The translations under genes and the position numbers were made by a program. DNA of 36,608 nucleotides from Eggerthellaceae bacterium (GTDB lineage Bacteria > Actinomycetota > Coriobacteriia > Coriobacteriales > Eggerthellaceae): assembly GCA_017440565.1 (NCBI GenBank), contig JAFSHA010000127.1, positions 1 to 36,608 of the forward strand, in the 5' to 3' direction. The notes under the pieces are model-generated. The model saw nothing but the letters and a program-made list of their open reading frames with translations. It was not told the DNA's origin and searched no databases. Positions 12,729 to 20,173 of this stretch are shown here, one piece after another; within the stretch, counting starts at the first letter, position 1; every line of letters begins with the position of its first letter.

Positions 12729-13913
12729 CTACTTAAACTTGCACAGGGCAAGCGCGGCGGTGCCGATAAAGCCGATCACGCACATCACGATGCCGGTGGT
12801 CATCCAAGCGGTCATATCGGGACCAAGCAGGATGGGGGTCAGCCAAGAACCCAGGAACTGGCCAAGGCTCTGAACCAGCATGAGAACGCCCATGCCGATG
12901 GACATAAGCTCGGGACGGCCGAGCACGTTGATGTAAGAGGTCAGGCACATAACCGGACCGCCCAGGCCGACGAGGCCCATCACGATGGCGCCAACCCACA
13001 GAAGCGGACCAGTCTGGGTGAGCAGCAGGAACGTGCAGGGACCCATCACGAACAGCGCAGCCAGGTACAGCGGCTTGCAGCGACCCAGCTTGTCAGACAG
13101 CGTGCCGAACAGCGGCGAGGAAATAACCGCGAGCAGCATGGGCAGCGTGCTGATGAAGCCGGACAGCGTCGGGTCAACGCCCTGCTGCTGCAGGAAGGTG
13201 GGGCCGAAGTTGAGAACGGCCATGAGGGTCAGGTTGAACACGAGGAACGCAAAGAAGAACAGCAGGATGTTGGGCTTAACGAGCTCGGTGTAGCTGACCT
13301 TCTCCTCGACGGCAGCCTCGGTTGCCTCTTCAAGGGCCTTACCCGGATCCTTGACGATAACGGCAACGACGATGGCGAACACAACGGCAGCAGCTGCGTA
13401 GATAACCCACACGCCCACGAAACCAGTAGCGGAGTACAGGGTGGGAGTCAAAACGCCACCGACTACGGAACCCAGGCAAACCCAAAGTGCCCAAATGCCC
13501 GTGGCCGAACCAATCTTGTCGGGCGCGACGTATTTCTGCACGGCTAGGGGACCGCAGATAGTGACGAAGATAAACGCCACGCCCTCAATGGCACGCGACA
13601 CGATGAGAATCATGCCGTTACCCGCAAAGGCGCCAAGAAGCGAACCGGCGGCAATGATGACGGCCGCTGCGAGCAGCATGGTCTTCGGGCCGAACTTCTT
13701 AGCGAGAGCGCCCGTGGGAACGGCAAGGACGATTCCCACGAACGTGAAGATGGACATGAGCCAAGACGCAGAGCCGGCGTCCATGTTCATGTTCACCATG
13801 ATGTCGCCCATAACGACGGGGACCTTGAACTGGATGGTTGCGATAGCCGTGCCGAACAGCAGCATGGCAAACGCGATCAGGATGTAATTCCCGTACTTCT
13901 TCTCGGTGCTCAT
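12729..13913 (-). CDS. Major facilitator superfamily transporter
   Basis: 394 residues with twelve predicted membrane segments in two halves. Between TM2 and TM3 is a GALAKKFGPKTM loop, the usual basic MFS signature region, and its counterpart in the second half is FGTLSDKLGRCKP. The linker after TM6 (about residues 190-215) is charged (KDPGKALEEATEAAVEEK). An AGGAGGAGG ribosome-binding site precedes the ATG. The substrate is unknown. It lies downstream of the molybdopterin oxidoreductase, Fe-S and VOC genes on the same strand, so it probably imports the module's substrate or exports its product. It is not an oxyanion antiporter by any motif I recognise. Confidence 0.88.
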   Translation of the reverse strand: MSTEKKYGNYILIAFAMLLFGTAIATIQFKVPVVMGDIMVNMNMDAGSASWLMSIFTFVGIVLAVPTGALAKKFGPKTMLLAAAVIIAAGSLLGAFAGNGMILIVSRAIEGVAFIFVTICGPLAVQKYVAPDKIGSATGIWALWVCLGSVVGGVLTPTLYSATGFVGVWVIYAAAAVVFAIVVAVIVKDPGKALEEATEAAVEEKVSYTELVKPNILLFFFAFLVFNLTLMAVLNFGPTFLQQQGVDPTLSGFISTLPMLLAVISSPLFGTLSDKLGRCKPLYLAALFVMGPCTFLLLTQTGPLLWVGAIVMGLVGLGGPVMCLTSYINVLGRPELMSIGMGVLMLVQSLGQFLGSWLTPILLGPDMTAWMTTGIVMCVIGFIGTAALALCKFK

Positions 13914-14143: not shown

Positions 14144-14605
14144 CTACAGCGCGGCGATGTTGTCCTGGACAACCTCGAAGCGCTCGCCGCCAGGACCGCG
14201 GAAGAACATGATGCGCAGCTGCGCGCCAGCATCTCCGTACGTGACGAAGACGTCGGAATCTTCCTCGGAAAGCGGGCGGTCGAACTCCAGCGGCGGATCG
14301 AACGGACCGGCCTCGATGGCCACACCCTTCTCGTTCAAAAACGCCACGAACTCGTCCATGTCGGGAACACGCAGAGCCAGGTGGTTCAGGCAGTTTGCTG
14401 CGGCATCACACGTGGACTTGTCCTCGCATTCGAGCAGCTCGAGCACAACGCCGCTGCCCTTGATCCACGCCATCTTGAGGGGCTTATCGCCCTCCATGGC
14501 GTCACTCTTCAGCAGCAGCTTGCAATCGAAGATCTCCTCGTAGAATTTAATCGACTCCTCGATGTCACGGCAGTACACGCCAACATGCTGGAAGCCCAAT
14601 TTCAT
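14144..14605 (-). CDS. VOC-superfamily (glyoxalase-fold) protein
   Basis: 153 residues starting MKLGFQHVGVYC; the upstream Met at 14650 is rejected because the family begins at this strand. Two beta-alpha-beta-beta-beta units place metal-ligand candidates at H7, E56, H75 and E144, the 2-His-2-Glu pattern of glyoxalase I and methylmalonyl-CoA epimerase. VOC proteins catalyse isomerisation, epimerisation, ring cleavage or glutathione-type chemistry on small ketones and phenols. Its place between a molybdopterin reductase and a transporter suggests that it processes the same substrate. The precise reaction cannot be read. Confidence 0.85.
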   Translation of the reverse strand: MKLGFQHVGVYCRDIEESIKFYEEIFDCKLLLKSDAMEGDKPLKMAWIKGSGVVLELLECEDKSTCDAAANCLNHLALRVPDMDEFVAFLNEKGVAIEAGPFDPPLEFDRPLSEEDSDVFVTYGDAGAQLRIMFFRGPGGERFEVVQDNIAAL

Positions 14606-14669
14606 GGTTTCCCCCTTCCATGCGTATTGAAACAGTTCGATTAAACACAAGCGGTGAAGCTAAGCTATC

Positions 14670-14722: not shown

Positions 14723-15469
14723 TTAGCCCTGATCGCTCGACGTGGCAGCCATAACCTCGGCAACCGTGGCGTTCTTCATACGAAGCTCGCTGATGCACAC
14801 GACATCGGCGCCGAACTCGGTGACGGCGGAGACGTCGGAGGTGTAGACGTCGTCAACAGCGGTGCGACGCTTGGTGAGCGCGATGGCCTTCTCGGCGTCG
14901 TAAGGAATGAGCTGCTCCTTCGGCGGATTCGCCTTGGCAACCCAGTTCGGCGTGGTGATAGCCGGATCGGGCATGGTCTCGATCTTGCGCACGTCGCCGT
15001 ACTTGGCAACAAGCTCGTCGATGGGACCGAAGTCCAGAGCACGCATGGGGCAGGAGGCCACGCACAGCGGCAGCTGGCCCTTCTCCAGGCGGTCGACGCA
15101 CATCGTGCACTTGCTCATCTTCGTGCCCGGCTCGTCGCTGGCGAACTTCGGCGCGCCGTAGGGGCATGCCTTCCAGCAGTTGCGGTCGCCCTCACACTTC
15201 TCGGGGTCAACCAGAACGGCACCGTAGGTGTCCTCTTTGAAGATGGCGTCATGCTCGCACGCCTCGACGCACACCGGGTTGTCGCAGTGACCGCAGTTGA
15301 ACGCCAGGATGCCGATGGAGGTGTTCGGGAACACGTCCTTCTCCCACATGTACACGCTCATCCACTTCTCGGGACCGGGCGCGATGTCATACCAGTCCTT
15401 GCACGCTACCGAGCAGGCCTTGCAGCCGTAGCAGCGTCCCTGGTCGAAGAAAAATCCGTACTGAGTCAT
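14723..15469 (-). CDS. Four-cluster ferredoxin subunit of molybdopterin oxidoreductase (DmsB-like)
   Basis: 248 residues. Sixteen-odd cysteines fall in four groups typical of DmsB/NrfC-type electron-transfer subunits: CYGCKACSVAC (13-23), CGHCDNPVCVEAC, CEGDRNCWKACP and CTMCVDRLEKGQLPLCVASCP. It should carry electrons to or from the catalytic subunit. There is no signal peptide and no adjacent membrane-anchor gene. It starts three bases after the catalytic gene's stop, with its AGGTAGG ribosome-binding site inside that gene, so the two are translationally coupled. The C-terminal 70 residues are unusual, acidic and Ala-rich. Confidence 0.93.
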   Translation of the reverse strand: MTQYGFFFDQGRCYGCKACSVACKDWYDIAPGPEKWMSVYMWEKDVFPNTSIGILAFNCGHCDNPVCVEACEHDAIFKEDTYGAVLVDPEKCEGDRNCWKACPYGAPKFASDEPGTKMSKCTMCVDRLEKGQLPLCVASCPMRALDFGPIDELVAKYGDVRKIETMPDPAITTPNWVAKANPPKEQLIPYDAEKAIALTKRRTAVDDVYTSDVSAVTEFGADVVCISELRMKNATVAEVMAATSSDQG

Positions 15470-15472
15470 GTT

Positions 15473-17971
15473 CTATTCGCCTACCTTCCTGATCTCAACC
15501 AGGCCAGCCGTCAGCAGCGCGCCCACGATGTGCGGCAGATGAGTGTCGCCGATGAGCAGGTTGCAGTTGCCGGCGGTGTCAATGCCGTATGGCATGAGCT
15601 TCGACTTACGCACGTTATCGAACTTGGACCACTCGCCATGGCCGATGGAAACGGTGCCCGGAAGCAGCTTCGAGGAAACGTACGCGGTGATCTCGACCTC
15701 GCCGAACTGGTTGTACACGAGGACGCGGTCGCCGGTCTTGATGCCGCGGTCGGCAGCGTCGGCCGGGGACATGCGCACCATGTGCTCGTAGCAGTCGCCC
15801 TTGAGCCAAGGGTTCTGGTCGTTAGCGGAGTGCTGACGATAGGAGGAAACCGGCGTGACCATGGACAGCGGGTAGTTCTGCGTCCAGGAATGATAGTAGC
15901 TGTCGTTTGCGGGCTCGTCCTGATAGGTGGGCTGCCAACGCGGGTATGCGTCGTACTGTCCGCCGTAACGGGTCTGGGTGAGGTCGTTCTCCTTGACGAA
16001 GGAGCTCTCGAACTCGATCTTGCCAGACGGCGTCTTGAACGGGGAACGGCCCCACTCGACGGTGTTCTTGAACGGGTAGAACCACTCGCCCGGCTCGCCG
16101 GGAACGCGGACGATCGGCATCTTCTGGAATTCCTCCCACGAAGGCGGATCGATCTCGTAGTAGCCCAGCAGGCCGTTCTCGTCCTTAGCCCACTCTTCGT
16201 AAGCCGGCTTGTAGATGCGCTCGATGACCTGCTCGTCCCACTCGCGCCAATCGGTGACGTCGAGCATCTTCGGGCAGTACTTGTCAGCGAAGCCAAGACG
16301 GCGAGCCAGCTCCATCCAGACCCAGTCCTTGGAGCGAATCTCTCCCGGAGGATTGACGCCCTTGCCGGCGAACAGGAAGTAGTTCATCATGCCGGACGGA
16401 CCGTTCCAGTAGCGGTTGATTCCGAAGAAGTGCATGTCGGTGGACTCGAACTGAATGACCGGCGACGGGAGCACGATGTCGAGGAACTCGATGGACGGCT
16501 GATCGTGGAAGTACTGCCAGCCCCAGGAGAATTCCATGTCGGCGAAGCCCTGCATACGCTTGGACACGTGATGCTGATTGTTGATGTAGTTGTTCGGGAT
16601 GATGGCCATGCGCAGGTGCGGCAGCGGCGAGCCCTTCGGGCAGCCGATGCGACGACGGAACTCTTCCTCGTCGATCTCGCCAGCAGCATAGAGCTTCTGG
16701 CAGTGCATGACCTCGGTCACCTTGTTGTTGTTGTTGGTGATGGGGTTGACCACATCGCCCTTGATCTGGCCGGTGTTGGGCACAGGCGCGAAGATGCGGG
16801 GCTGAGTAACCAGGTTGGCGCCGCCACCCTCGCAGCCGCCGGGGATGGACATGTTGCCGGTCATAGCCTGGAGCAGCATGGCCACAGCCGCGGCGTAGTC
16901 GCCGAGGTTACGCTTGGAAACGCCGTACATCTGCTGCAGGTGGACGGGCTTCATGGAAGCGTAGTAACGGGCGAACTCGCGGATGGTCTCAGCCGGGATA
17001 CCGGTGATGGGCTCGGCCCACTCGGGGGTGTGCTCGACGCCGTCGACTTCGCCGACGATGTACTTGCGCCACTGCTCGAAGCCCTCGGGCTCAACCCAGG
17101 TCTCGACGTACTCATGGTCGTACAGGTCCTCGGTGTAGAGAACGTGCGCGACAGCCAGGCCGAACGCGGTGTCGGTGCCGGGGCGGATCGGAATCCACTG
17201 CGCACCCAGAGCCTCGGCGGAGACGTTGTATACCGGGTCGATGAGGATGAACTTCGTCCCGCGCTCCTGGGCTAGCTTCATGTAGAAGGGCACATGGCCA
17301 AACCATGCGACCATCGGGTCGAAGCCCCAGAGAACCACGAGCTTGGAGTTCAGCAGGTCGGGAGCCTCGAAGCCGGGGAAGGCGTCAGAGGTGCCCTTGA
17401 TGAGGCAGTCGGTCAGGCGGACGCCCAGATGGAAGTCCTCAGCCGCGGCGCTGCCGGAGGTGGAGTGGTCGCCCCAGCCGGTGATGGTGCCAGGCATGTA
17501 GGAAGCGAACGGGAAGTCGGAGCTCTCGAATGCCACATAGTAGCAGTAGTACAGCCACGGGCGGTCGGGGCTCTCGTCGGCGAACTGCTTCATCTTGTTC
17601 GCGATGGTGTCAAGCGCCTCTTCCCAGGAAATGCGCTCGAAGTGGCCCTTGCCGGAGCCCTTCTCACCAATACGCTTCATGGGGTACAGCAGGCGGTTCT
17701 CGGAGTACAGCTCCTGGCGCCATGCATGGCCCATGGGGCATGCACGAGCCTGCAGCATACCAGTCTGCACGGCGTTCTCGTCGTCGTCCTCGCGCGCGAT
17801 GCCGGGGTTGACCGAGTCGTCGGGCTCAATGGCGATGATCTTGCCGTCCTTCACGCTGCACTTGATCAGGCAGGTGGCGTCCCAGCAGCCATTGTTGTGG
17901 CAAGTGGTGTAGAAATAGTCTACCCCCTCGTGGCGCTCGCCCAGTTTCTCGACTATCGACTCTCTTGACAT
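15473..17971 (-). CDS. DMSO-reductase-family molybdopterin oxidoreductase, catalytic subunit
   Basis: 832 residues from ATG 17971 (GAGGAGG ribosome-binding site). Cysteines C24, C29, C34, C38 and C78 (ACPMGH) give a 4Fe-4S site with unusually wide spacing (DmsA has CX3CX3C). The segment YPMKRIGEKGSGKFERISWEEA-like (about 95-115) matches DmsA. GDHSTSGS aligns with the GDYSS of DmsA, so the molybdenum ligand is probably Ser. The C-terminal molybdopterin-binding domain carries HSANDQNPWLKG and ADAADRGIKTGDRV. There is no twin-arginine signal, so the enzyme should act in the cytoplasm. No DmsC anchor follows. The substrate is unknown; Eggerthellaceae use relatives for catechol dehydroxylation, sulfoxide reduction and similar reactions. 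Confidence 0.92.
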   Translation of the reverse strand: MSRESIVEKLGERHEGVDYFYTTCHNNGCWDATCLIKCSVKDGKIIAIEPDDSVNPGIAREDDDENAVQTGMLQARACPMGHAWRQELYSENRLLYPMKRIGEKGSGKGHFERISWEEALDTIANKMKQFADESPDRPWLYYCYYVAFESSDFPFASYMPGTITGWGDHSTSGSAAAEDFHLGVRLTDCLIKGTSDAFPGFEAPDLLNSKLVVLWGFDPMVAWFGHVPFYMKLAQERGTKFILIDPVYNVSAEALGAQWIPIRPGTDTAFGLAVAHVLYTEDLYDHEYVETWVEPEGFEQWRKYIVGEVDGVEHTPEWAEPITGIPAETIREFARYYASMKPVHLQQMYGVSKRNLGDYAAAVAMLLQAMTGNMSIPGGCEGGGANLVTQPRIFAPVPNTGQIKGDVVNPITNNNNKVTEVMHCQKLYAAGEIDEEEFRRRIGCPKGSPLPHLRMAIIPNNYINNQHHVSKRMQGFADMEFSWGWQYFHDQPSIEFLDIVLPSPVIQFESTDMHFFGINRYWNGPSGMMNYFLFAGKGVNPPGEIRSKDWVWMELARRLGFADKYCPKMLDVTDWREWDEQVIERIYKPAYEEWAKDENGLLGYYEIDPPSWEEFQKMPIVRVPGEPGEWFYPFKNTVEWGRSPFKTPSGKIEFESSFVKENDLTQTRYGGQYDAYPRWQPTYQDEPANDSYYHSWTQNYPLSMVTPVSSYRQHSANDQNPWLKGDCYEHMVRMSPADAADRGIKTGDRVLVYNQFGEVEITAYVSSKLLPGTVSIGHGEWSKFDNVRKSKLMPYGIDTAGNCNLLIGDTHLPHIVGALLTAGLVEIRKVGE

Positions 17972-18413
17972 CGTGCCTCCTCTCTTTGTAGCAACTCTCC
18001 CAAAAGAATGCGACTGCGCCCTCCAGCGCAACTCGCTTGAATGCAGACTACTGAGGCGCTTTCGTCGTTAACAAGGTCATTTCTGTTTTTCTATTTTTCG
18101 AAAATATCCTGTGTAATCTAACTTGCGAATTCTCGACATTGCCGACATCGAAAGATTCCGTTTTTTCTAAATGCTAAAATGAACGGGCCGCGTTGAGATA
18201 GGCATGCTGACGGCGGATCCGGGCGCTTCGCTTCTTTCGACCGCCTTTCCAGCGTCTCTATCTCAGCGCGACCAATTGGGATGCATGCAAGCTTCCTAGT
18301 CGACATGATTTCCGCGAAAAGGCAGGTCATGCGGGTTGTTCCGCATGGTTTGCTGCGCCGCGGAGGCCATATGCGTCGCAACTTGCTCAGGGGGATGTGA
18401 AGGGGTGTGCGTG
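17972..18413. promoter_or_regulatory. 442-bp divergent control region between oxidoreductase and Fic-like gene
   Basis: An A/T-rich stretch (about 18070-18120) with the near-palindrome ATTTTTCGAAAAT lies closest to the oxidoreductase gene and is the likely promoter/operator zone. A long structured inverted repeat occupies 18186-18273. No tRNA or convincing small ORF is seen. The arrangement suits a divergently encoded regulator acting on the oxidoreductase operon. Confidence 0.5.
18186..18273. repeat. 88-bp structured inverted repeat
   Basis: Outer arms 18186-18201 and 18258-18273 pair over 16 positions with one mismatch and one G-U. Inside, on the minus strand, GCTG/CAGC and GGCGG/CCGCC continue the stem past small internal loops to an apical GCGAAGC. 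It would fold as one long hairpin if transcribed toward the oxidoreductase gene, or could be a binding site. No riboswitch class is recognised. Confidence 0.6.
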
Positions 18414-19601
18414 ATGGACTATGCAGGCTATTCGTATTCGGCGCTTACTCAAGCCGAATTCTACAAAGCAGAAGCGGAGCTCCTTCGATTCGGCGACAAG
18501 CTGACTCACAGCCCCTGCGCGCGCTACATGCAAACCACGCTACTTGCCTTCGACGCCTGCTTTGCCATCCACATGACGCACGACTTCGTGCTTCCGGTCG
18601 TGCCGCTTATCACCGCGTTTGACTTGACCGACTGGAAATACCACGGCGACACGTACCGCAGCGTGCGGGCGCGCTTGCCTGAGTTCCAGTTCCCCGAGGA
18701 AACGCTAAGCGCCGCGCCTTACGCGCTGCATTACATGCAAGCGATTAACTGGGTGGCGGAAAACACCCAGCCCGATACCGTGATCAGCCTCGACACCGTC
18801 CTGCGCCTGCACGAGATCCTCCTCAGCGGCACCACGGGCGACAACCGCTATCGAGGGTTTCGCACCTCATATCTGCCGCATAAGAAGGGATCCGACCCCA
18901 CGCGCATTCCGCTTGAAATCAATGAGCTGTGCCAGTTTGCGAACACCGAGTCCTTCTCGCCTATCGGCCAGGCTTCGGTCATCCACCACGCCTTCGAGCG
19001 CATCGTGCCCTTCGAGCAGATGATCGACCGCACGGGCCTCGTGCTTTCCTTCATGTCGCTGTTCAAGCGAGGGCTTCTGCCGCATGGGTACATGGTGCCC
19101 ATCTGCTGGGGCGCATCCGTCGACAAAGAGTATCGCCGCAAGCTCAAGGACTCGTCGCGCGACATGTCCTCGCTGGAAACGCACGAGAAATTCCGCGAGC
19201 ATTGGGCCATCTACAACGCGCGCAACACCTACATGTCCGTGGTCATAGCCGACTCGTTCCTGAACGCCGCCGACCGCCTTCGCACGAAATGGCGGTCGCG
19301 CGACCTGCGCATACCGGCCAACTCCGCCATGGATCGCCTGCTTGACCTGCTGTTGGCCGTGCCAGGGCTTTCCACCATTCGCGCGGCGGATATTATCGGG
19401 AAAAGCTACGGCGCCACCAACGAGGCCATGCGTCAGCTTGCCCAAGCGGGCATCGTACGCGAGGTGGCCCTTGACGGACGCGAGCGCATATTCATCTGCG
19501 AGCAGTCGGCAGCCATGATCACGGAGTTCGTAGAGAATCTTGCGCGTATGGGCAGCAAAGCCGAGGCCGACGGTATTCGCAGCAAGAGCCTCCTTCTGTA
19601 A
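18414..19601 (+). CDS. Fic-fold protein with degenerate active site and C-terminal winged-helix region
   Basis: 395 residues; ATG 18414 has AAGGGG eight bases upstream, so the longer frame from 18336 is rejected. A Fic core spans about 135-245: GDNRYRGFRTSYLPH, then HHAFERIVPFEQMIDRTGLVLSF. The catalytic motif HPFxxGNGRxxR reads VPFEQMIDRTGL, so the general-base His is Val, the anion-hole Gly-Asn-Gly is Met-Ile-Asp and the last Arg is Leu. AMP transfer is therefore unlikely. The C terminus (about 310-370) looks like a winged helix (TIRAADIIGKSYGATNEAMRQL, AGIVREV). Divergent from the oxidoreductase operon, it is probably its transcriptional regulator, perhaps sensing a ligand through the Fic pocket. 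Confidence 0.82.
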   Translation: MDYAGYSYSALTQAEFYKAEAELLRFGDKLTHSPCARYMQTTLLAFDACFAIHMTHDFVLPVVPLITAFDLTDWKYHGDTYRSVRARLPEFQFPEETLSAAPYALHYMQAINWVAENTQPDTVISLDTVLRLHEILLSGTTGDNRYRGFRTSYLPHKKGSDPTRIPLEINELCQFANTESFSPIGQASVIHHAFERIVPFEQMIDRTGLVLSFMSLFKRGLLPHGYMVPICWGASVDKEYRRKLKDSSRDMSSLETHEKFREHWAIYNARNTYMSVVIADSFLNAADRLRTKWRSRDLRIPANSAMDRLLDLLLAVPGLSTIRAADIIGKSYGATNEAMRQLAQAGIVREVALDGRERIFICEQSAAMITEFVENLARMGSKAEADGIRSKSLLL

Positions 19602-19895: not shown

Positions 19896-20129
19896 CTACT
19901 TCACAGCCTCACCCGTAGAATCGCTGTGGAAGTTGGAGAAGCCGCCCACCGCGTTCGCGGCAAACTTGCCTTCGGTCTTAGAGAAAAAGACCTGCGTCTT
20001 CATCAGATCCTTGATGGTGACACCAACCTCGGCCATGGCCTCCTTCTGGCTCTTCCCCTCTTCGATGAAAGCGTTGAGCACCTCAGCCTTCTTCGGCGAC
20101 TCCAAAGCCATGAACTCCTCGCGCTCCAT
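19896..20129 (-). CDS. Small helix-turn-helix-like protein
   Basis: 77 residues from ATG 20129, chosen because GGGGGAGG lies five bases upstream; a start at 20144 would remove that site. Residues about 10-45 (SPKKAEVLNAFIEEGKSQKEAMAEVGVTIKDL) read as two or three short helices resembling a helix-turn-helix of the kind that names recurring small regulators. The C-terminal half has no recognisable motif. The strong ribosome-binding site, consensus -10 and inverted repeat upstream support expression. The function is unknown. Confidence 0.65.
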   Translation of the reverse strand: MEREEFMALESPKKAEVLNAFIEEGKSQKEAMAEVGVTIKDLMKTQVFFSKTEGKFAANAVGGFSNFHSDSTGEAVK

Positions 20130-20173
20130 ATGAACCTCCCCCATGGGTTGTCAAATGCCAACATGCTTTCGCC

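Follow-up and report, generated by a model that had tools for sequence, protein, structure and literature searches.

The window, the whole stretch of DNA analysed here, comprises 36,608 nucleotides from an Eggerthellaceae bacterium. It carries a gene, referred to as fic, whose product joins a Fic domain to a C-terminal winged helix-turn-helix (wHTH) domain. The fic ORF is complete, from ATG 18414 to the stop codon ending at 19601. Alternative in-frame starts occur 5' of this ATG, as far as TTG 18336, and M1 is the alignment start for most orthologs. The fic and dmsA genes are divergent and separated by a 442-bp gap, which agrees with the sequence-only reading, in which fic was placed divergent from a molybdopterin operon. 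The features of the locus are listed in table 1.

Table 1. Features of the fic locus, in window coordinates.
Feature	Position	Strand	Basis
Fic-wHTH gene, catalytically degenerate, 395 aa	18414..19601	+	ORF, Pfam Fic E=4.7e-7, 10 Eggerthellaceae orthologs, dN/dS 0.05-0.20
Fic domain core, residues 124-211	18783..19046	+	PF02661 match
Former Fic motif VPFEQMIDRTGL, residues 198-209	19005..19040	+	alignments, residue counts vs 41 canonical relatives
C-terminal wHTH, about residues 303-362; recognition helix about 333-346	19320..19499	+	HTH_24, profile alignment to 7cb8/SoFic, most invariant part, weak model
Divergent intergenic region, presumed control region	17972..18413		between both start codons
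Conserved 11-bp element, candidate operator or promoter element	18079..18089	-	alignment, shuffles
TGCTAAAAT, possible extended -10 of fic promoter	18172..18180	+	conserved in six closest orthologs
DmsA-like molybdopterin oxidoreductase, no evident Tat signal, presumed target	15473..17971	-	PF00384, PF01568, TIGR02166 subfamily match; N-terminus
DmsB-like iron-sulfur subunit	14723..15469	-	TIGR02951, Fer4 families
Glyoxalase-superfamily protein	14144..14650	-	PF00903
MFS transporter, conserved neighbour	12732..13913	-	PF07690, synteny

The former catalytic site and the C-terminal domain

The window protein matches PF02661 over its Fic core with 31 bits against a gathering cut-off of 24 (E=4.7e-7). 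This profile is also matched by 18/22 of the degenerate family members tested. Active Fic AMP transferases are defined by the motif HPFx(D/E)GN(G/K)RxxR with its catalytic His, which the window protein does not have. Aligned with HPFx(D/E)GNGRxxR, VPFEQMIDRTGL has Val in place of His, Gln in place of the metal-binding D/E, M-I-D in place of G-N-G and Leu in place of the final Arg, while P, F, the inner Arg and the Gly that follows it are kept. The protein also fails the motif test for class II Fic enzymes. The inhibitory-helix motif, which is S-S-x-I-E-G or similar in canonical relatives, gives way to FAIRMSHD-like residues in the window clade. Because the catalytic residues and the inhibitory-helix motif are both gone, both halves of the AMPylation machinery appear to have been abandoned in this clade. 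These changes at nearly every catalytic position lend strong support to the earlier claim of an inactive Fic fold, and AMPylation by the window protein would not be expected. Loss of the His, the GNG and the terminal Arg had been claimed and was found, along with loss of the acidic residue, which was missing from the earlier list.

The former catalytic positions were also compared across the degenerate group, where most members lack the acid and the Asn. At the former His position the residue (V, A, K, R, S or G) differs between subfamilies: most have Lys or Arg, and the window clade has Val or Ala. A new feature shared by 31/38 degenerate members is an Asp replacing the last Gly of GNG.

A single-sequence Pfam search gave a sub-threshold HTH_24 match to residues 308-349 (E=0.0086). 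A profile of the degenerate family, searched against solved structures, aligned with 7cb8 through both the Fic and C-terminal domains (E=6.7e-50), and it also matched FICD and SoFic, the latter with the C-terminal domain covered. This alignment across the C-terminal domains of 7cb8 and SoFic assigns the window protein to the wHTH proteins and, together with the PF02661 match, supports, at the level of sequence, the earlier proposal that the flanks of the Fic fold and a C-terminal winged-helix-like region are kept. SoFic (3EQX/3ZCN) and Mycobacterium marinum 7CB8 are the closest solved Fic-domain proteins by profile. They differ from the window protein in keeping the Fic residues in the aligned motif region, and the literature consulted does not describe them as reductase regulators. 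Prediction of the whole-protein structure from two input sequences only reached a pLDDT of 40, and this model was left unused. A model of the wHTH alone, also from two input sequences, was weak (pLDDT 53) and had the element order H-H-H-E-E. Foldseek returned many wHTH regulators and 7cb8 for it, but ribosomal proteins too, and all matches were weak (E >= 0.001). The wHTH is the best-conserved part of the protein, with 48% invariant columns vs 27% elsewhere (p=0.0017). The viral collection gave no usable pattern.

Orthologs and the divergent intergenic region

Orthologs that are 50-71% identical were identified in 10 Eggerthellaceae species. At all 10 loci the neighbours are the same: DmsA, DmsB and glyoxalase, plus the MFS gene wherever the contig extends that far. 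The His, acid, GNG and last Arg are gone in 10/10, and the same residues are lost at L151, a locus from another family of the order, where the neighbours are DmsA, DmsB and MFS and no glyoxalase match was found beside fic. Since the same residues are lost in the 10 orthologs and in L151, chance or sequencing error is excluded as their cause. The gene is intact in 11 species with a dN/dS of 0.05-0.20, which likewise rules out a decaying gene.

An 82-aa ORF (orf82, 19896-20144, minus strand) is convergent with fic. It is kept beside fic in 9/10 other Eggerthellaceae loci with 59-81% identity, and is also found beside fic in L151. Its one Pfam match is a weak one to HTH_28 (E=0.079). A copy with 44% identity lies in L055 at 16324-16515. 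A toxin-antitoxin reading was rejected, as the catalytic residues are absent and the convergent orf82 is the only small conserved neighbour. No LuxR-type regulator was found on the window contig; the genome has 26 LuxR-domain matches.

The divergent intergenic region contains a conserved 11-bp element, GTTTCTGTTTT on the plus strand in most orthologs. In 11/11 Eggerthellaceae orthologs it precedes the DmsA start by 98-107 bp, and its distance to the fic start varies among them from 138 to 336 bp. When seven diverse members were shuffled, ignoring their relatedness, 0/200 shuffles gave such a word. The fixed distance to dmsA and the shuffling result tie the element to the reductase and support reading it as a reductase-linked element; as regards the Fic protein it is a candidate site only. 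L151 has a version with two mismatches, farther out, and no convincing match was found in the other subfamilies. Between dmsA and the two-mismatch element, L151 contains a short tandem repeat of about GCAAGCCTTGCGCAATCTTGCGTTTTTC. In the intergenic region of the window, the TGCTAAAAT word may be a fic promoter element, judging from its conservation.

Survey of Fic-wHTH proteins

A survey of 138 Eggerthellaceae genomes generated 81 loci with 79 full-length Fic-wHTH proteins. Of these, 41 have an intact HPFxxGN(G/K)R motif, 36 are His-less, and 2 are degenerate with the His kept. A DmsA-family ORF lies within 3 kb of 36/36 His-less genes vs 2/41 intact-motif genes, which is the linkage to a molybdoenzyme gene looked for in locus-specific Coriobacteriia molybdoenzyme regulators. 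Within 300 bp the counts are 25/36 vs 1/41; gene calls in relatives were stop-to-stop ORFs with profile matches, so these distances are approximate. Some surveyed loci reach contig edges. Such a survey of degenerate Fic genes for pairing with molybdopterin operons had been suggested in the sequence-only reading, and its outcome is positive. With about 42 DmsA-family genes in 2.4 Mb, about 15% of genes would be expected to have one within 3 kb by chance. Adjacency through sheer abundance of DmsA genes was ruled out by the canonical Fic-HTH proteins of the same bacterial family, which served as control (2/41). The 36 His-less proteins are related by descent, and a Fisher p-value for adjacency therefore overstates their independence.

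The two intact-motif genes near a DmsA-family gene are L069:5402-6631 (273 bp) and L117:3365-4891 (1320 bp), which are possibly independent pairings or chance. Genome G000, with 45 molybdopterin-oxidoreductase profile matches in 2.4 Mb, was found to have a single degenerate Fic-wHTH gene.

The degenerate proteins form about 14 subfamilies that are down to about 22% identical and co-diverge with their DmsA partners. Fic and DmsA distances are correlated (r=0.78 overall; r=0.57, p=2e-4 among 14 subfamily representatives). Relative to dmsA, 21 of the 36 His-less genes are divergent, 9 are upstream on the same strand, 5 are convergent and 1 is arranged otherwise. The partner enzymes include proteins with and without Tat-like signals. 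In genome G085, three degenerate paralogs (L051, L061 and L102) each lie at their own DmsA. That the link held through divergence to ~22% identity and through rearrangements, with correlated distances, argues for a function. Loss of the catalytic residues, conservation, linkage and co-divergence are all read directly from the sequences. With the motif columns left out of the alignment, a tree splits the degenerate and intact groups by one branch with weak support (SH-aLRT 71), so that loss of catalysis was possibly a single event.

Outside Eggerthellaceae, four degenerate members lie beside DmsA genes and one beside a fumarate-reductase-like operon. No reductase was found near two other order-level degenerate members, L153 and L154. 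The fumarate-reductase-like case, L155:9587-10771, is a degenerate Fic-wHTH gene with the motif RPFELKDTRTSL. It is divergent from a pair of genes for a flavoprotein and an iron-sulfur protein, both fumarate-reductase-like; from this locus, the link of fic may extend to flavin reductases. In a phylum-wide search, matches outside the order had mostly intact or near-intact motifs and no DmsA match in their 1.5-kb flanks.

A putative regulator of a molybdenum reductase operon

Two characterized proteins set a precedent for DNA binding by a protein of this architecture. One is the Fic-HTH protein CccR of Yersinia pseudotuberculosis (PDB 7XUX), which binds an inverted repeat within its promoter and represses transcription there with no need for catalysis (PMC9755527). 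It resembles the window protein in having an N-terminal Fic domain and a C-terminal HTH. CccR differs in retaining HPFGNGNGRTVR and the inhibitory helix, in AMPylating FtsZ, in being secreted and in having no link to a reductase operon (PMC9755527); the window protein is without the catalytic residues, and its gene lies at a molybdoenzyme operon. CbFic2 of Coxiella burnetii, a class II Fic protein, binds DNA through its C-terminal wHTH (PMC10628234); unlike the window protein it is an active (de)AMPylase with HPFDDGNGRIGR that acts on histone H3 (PMC10628234).

The genomic evidence gives good support to the earlier suggestion that the window protein regulates transcription of the reductase operon. 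Because of the adjacency (36/36 vs 2/41), the co-divergence, the several arrangements, the conserved wHTH, the 11-bp element, the lack of a LuxR gene on the window contig and the CccR and CbFic2 precedents, we consider it likely, with a probability of about 0.75, that the protein is a dedicated local regulator of the divergent dmsAB-glyoxalase-MFS operon and belongs to an order-level, mostly Eggerthellaceae family of such regulators. For the window protein as a regulator acting locally on the dms operon, proposed to be a dimer, the figure is about 0.75-0.8. We infer its DNA binding, its target and its effector. The ancestor would have been a Fic enzyme whose C-terminus bound DNA. AMP transfer would have been lost, possibly once, and the degenerate protein would then have spread as a local regulator along with copied reductase operons, of the molybdenum type and in one case of the flavin type. 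In the window, a dimer may bind the intergenic region through the wHTH, perhaps at the 11-bp element about 100 bp upstream of dmsA.

What the Fic part would contribute to such a regulator is more tentative. Eggerthella lenta has DadR, HcdR and CadR, LuxR proteins with 10-12 TM segments that control an adjacent enzyme in response to its substrate (PMC9734109). They too belong to a large expanded family, whose genes adjoin those for molybdenum or flavin reductases in these bacteria (PMC9734109). These are membrane sensors with a LuxR HTH, unrelated to the predicted soluble Fic-wHTH proteins, and the analogy is one of role only. A reductase substrate or related small molecule might occupy the remodelled Fic cleft and change dmsA transcription. 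Sensing of a small molecule by the cleft, as suggested in the sequence-only reading and supported only indirectly, is conceivable, if somewhat short of an even chance. CccR autorepression leads us to lean towards a repressor that is relieved by ligand. It is an equally tentative suggestion that a second class of substrate-responsive regulators, soluble in this case, serves the molybdenum reductases of Coriobacteriia, an AMPylation cleft having become a sensor in ~14 or more subfamilies, each with its own reductase.

The wHTH might instead control dmsA with the Fic part as a dimerisation scaffold that senses nothing, which we think rather unlikely. CccR H192A still represses, its DNA binding resides in the C-terminal half and its N-terminal residues dimerise (PMC9755527), and the cleft residues of the degenerate proteins differ between subfamilies, as would suit a scaffold. 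Against this, ~14 subfamilies that track different enzymes suggest an enzyme-specific response in each, the analogous LuxR proteins respond to enzyme substrates (PMC9734109), and small molecules other than the usual nucleotide can occupy a Fic protein, as isoprenoid diphosphates are reported to inhibit FicD (PMC12974487).

The His-less fold could also be a re-tooled enzyme performing another group transfer on a protein of the reductase pathway, with the wHTH serving to localise it or vestigial. AvrB has a Fido fold without the conserved motif (PMC4454073) and yet is a rhamnosyltransferase (PMC10866546), and the new Asp of the degenerate group could be functional. We regard this as improbable given that the metal-binding acid and anion-hole residues are gone in most degenerate members, that the His position varies by subfamily in a manner unlike a shared new active site, and that conservation is highest in the wHTH. 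Least probable is an accessory or maturation factor, a chaperone or assembly protein that is linked to dmsA for that purpose and plays no part in transcription. Near-total linkage and co-varying distances would be expected of a binding partner too, and nine degenerate genes are co-directional and upstream of dmsA. Against it, 21/36 genes have the divergent orientation that local regulators typically show, conservation peaks in the wHTH, and the partners come from diverse enzyme families, with and without Tat signals, and include one flavin reductase.

A description of catalytically inactive Fic proteins as reductase regulators was not found in the open-access literature, so novelty is provisional. 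Fic is unmentioned in the literature examined on Coriobacteriia regulators and molybdoenzymes, and no open-access paper was found that combines Eggerthella with the Fic domain.

Gut Eggerthellaceae genomes can hold dozens of molybdenum reductases, as the 45 profile matches illustrate. Compounds from the diet and the host are among the known substrates of this class, yet many of the reductases are without a known substrate. For these enzymes, the degenerate Fic proteins look like a group of switches that has so far gone undescribed. A regulator dedicated to one reductase could be used as a reporter for finding its substrate, as has been proposed for the LuxR proteins. If the proposed role is true, the family would show a post-translational modifying enzyme turning into a family of transcription factors.
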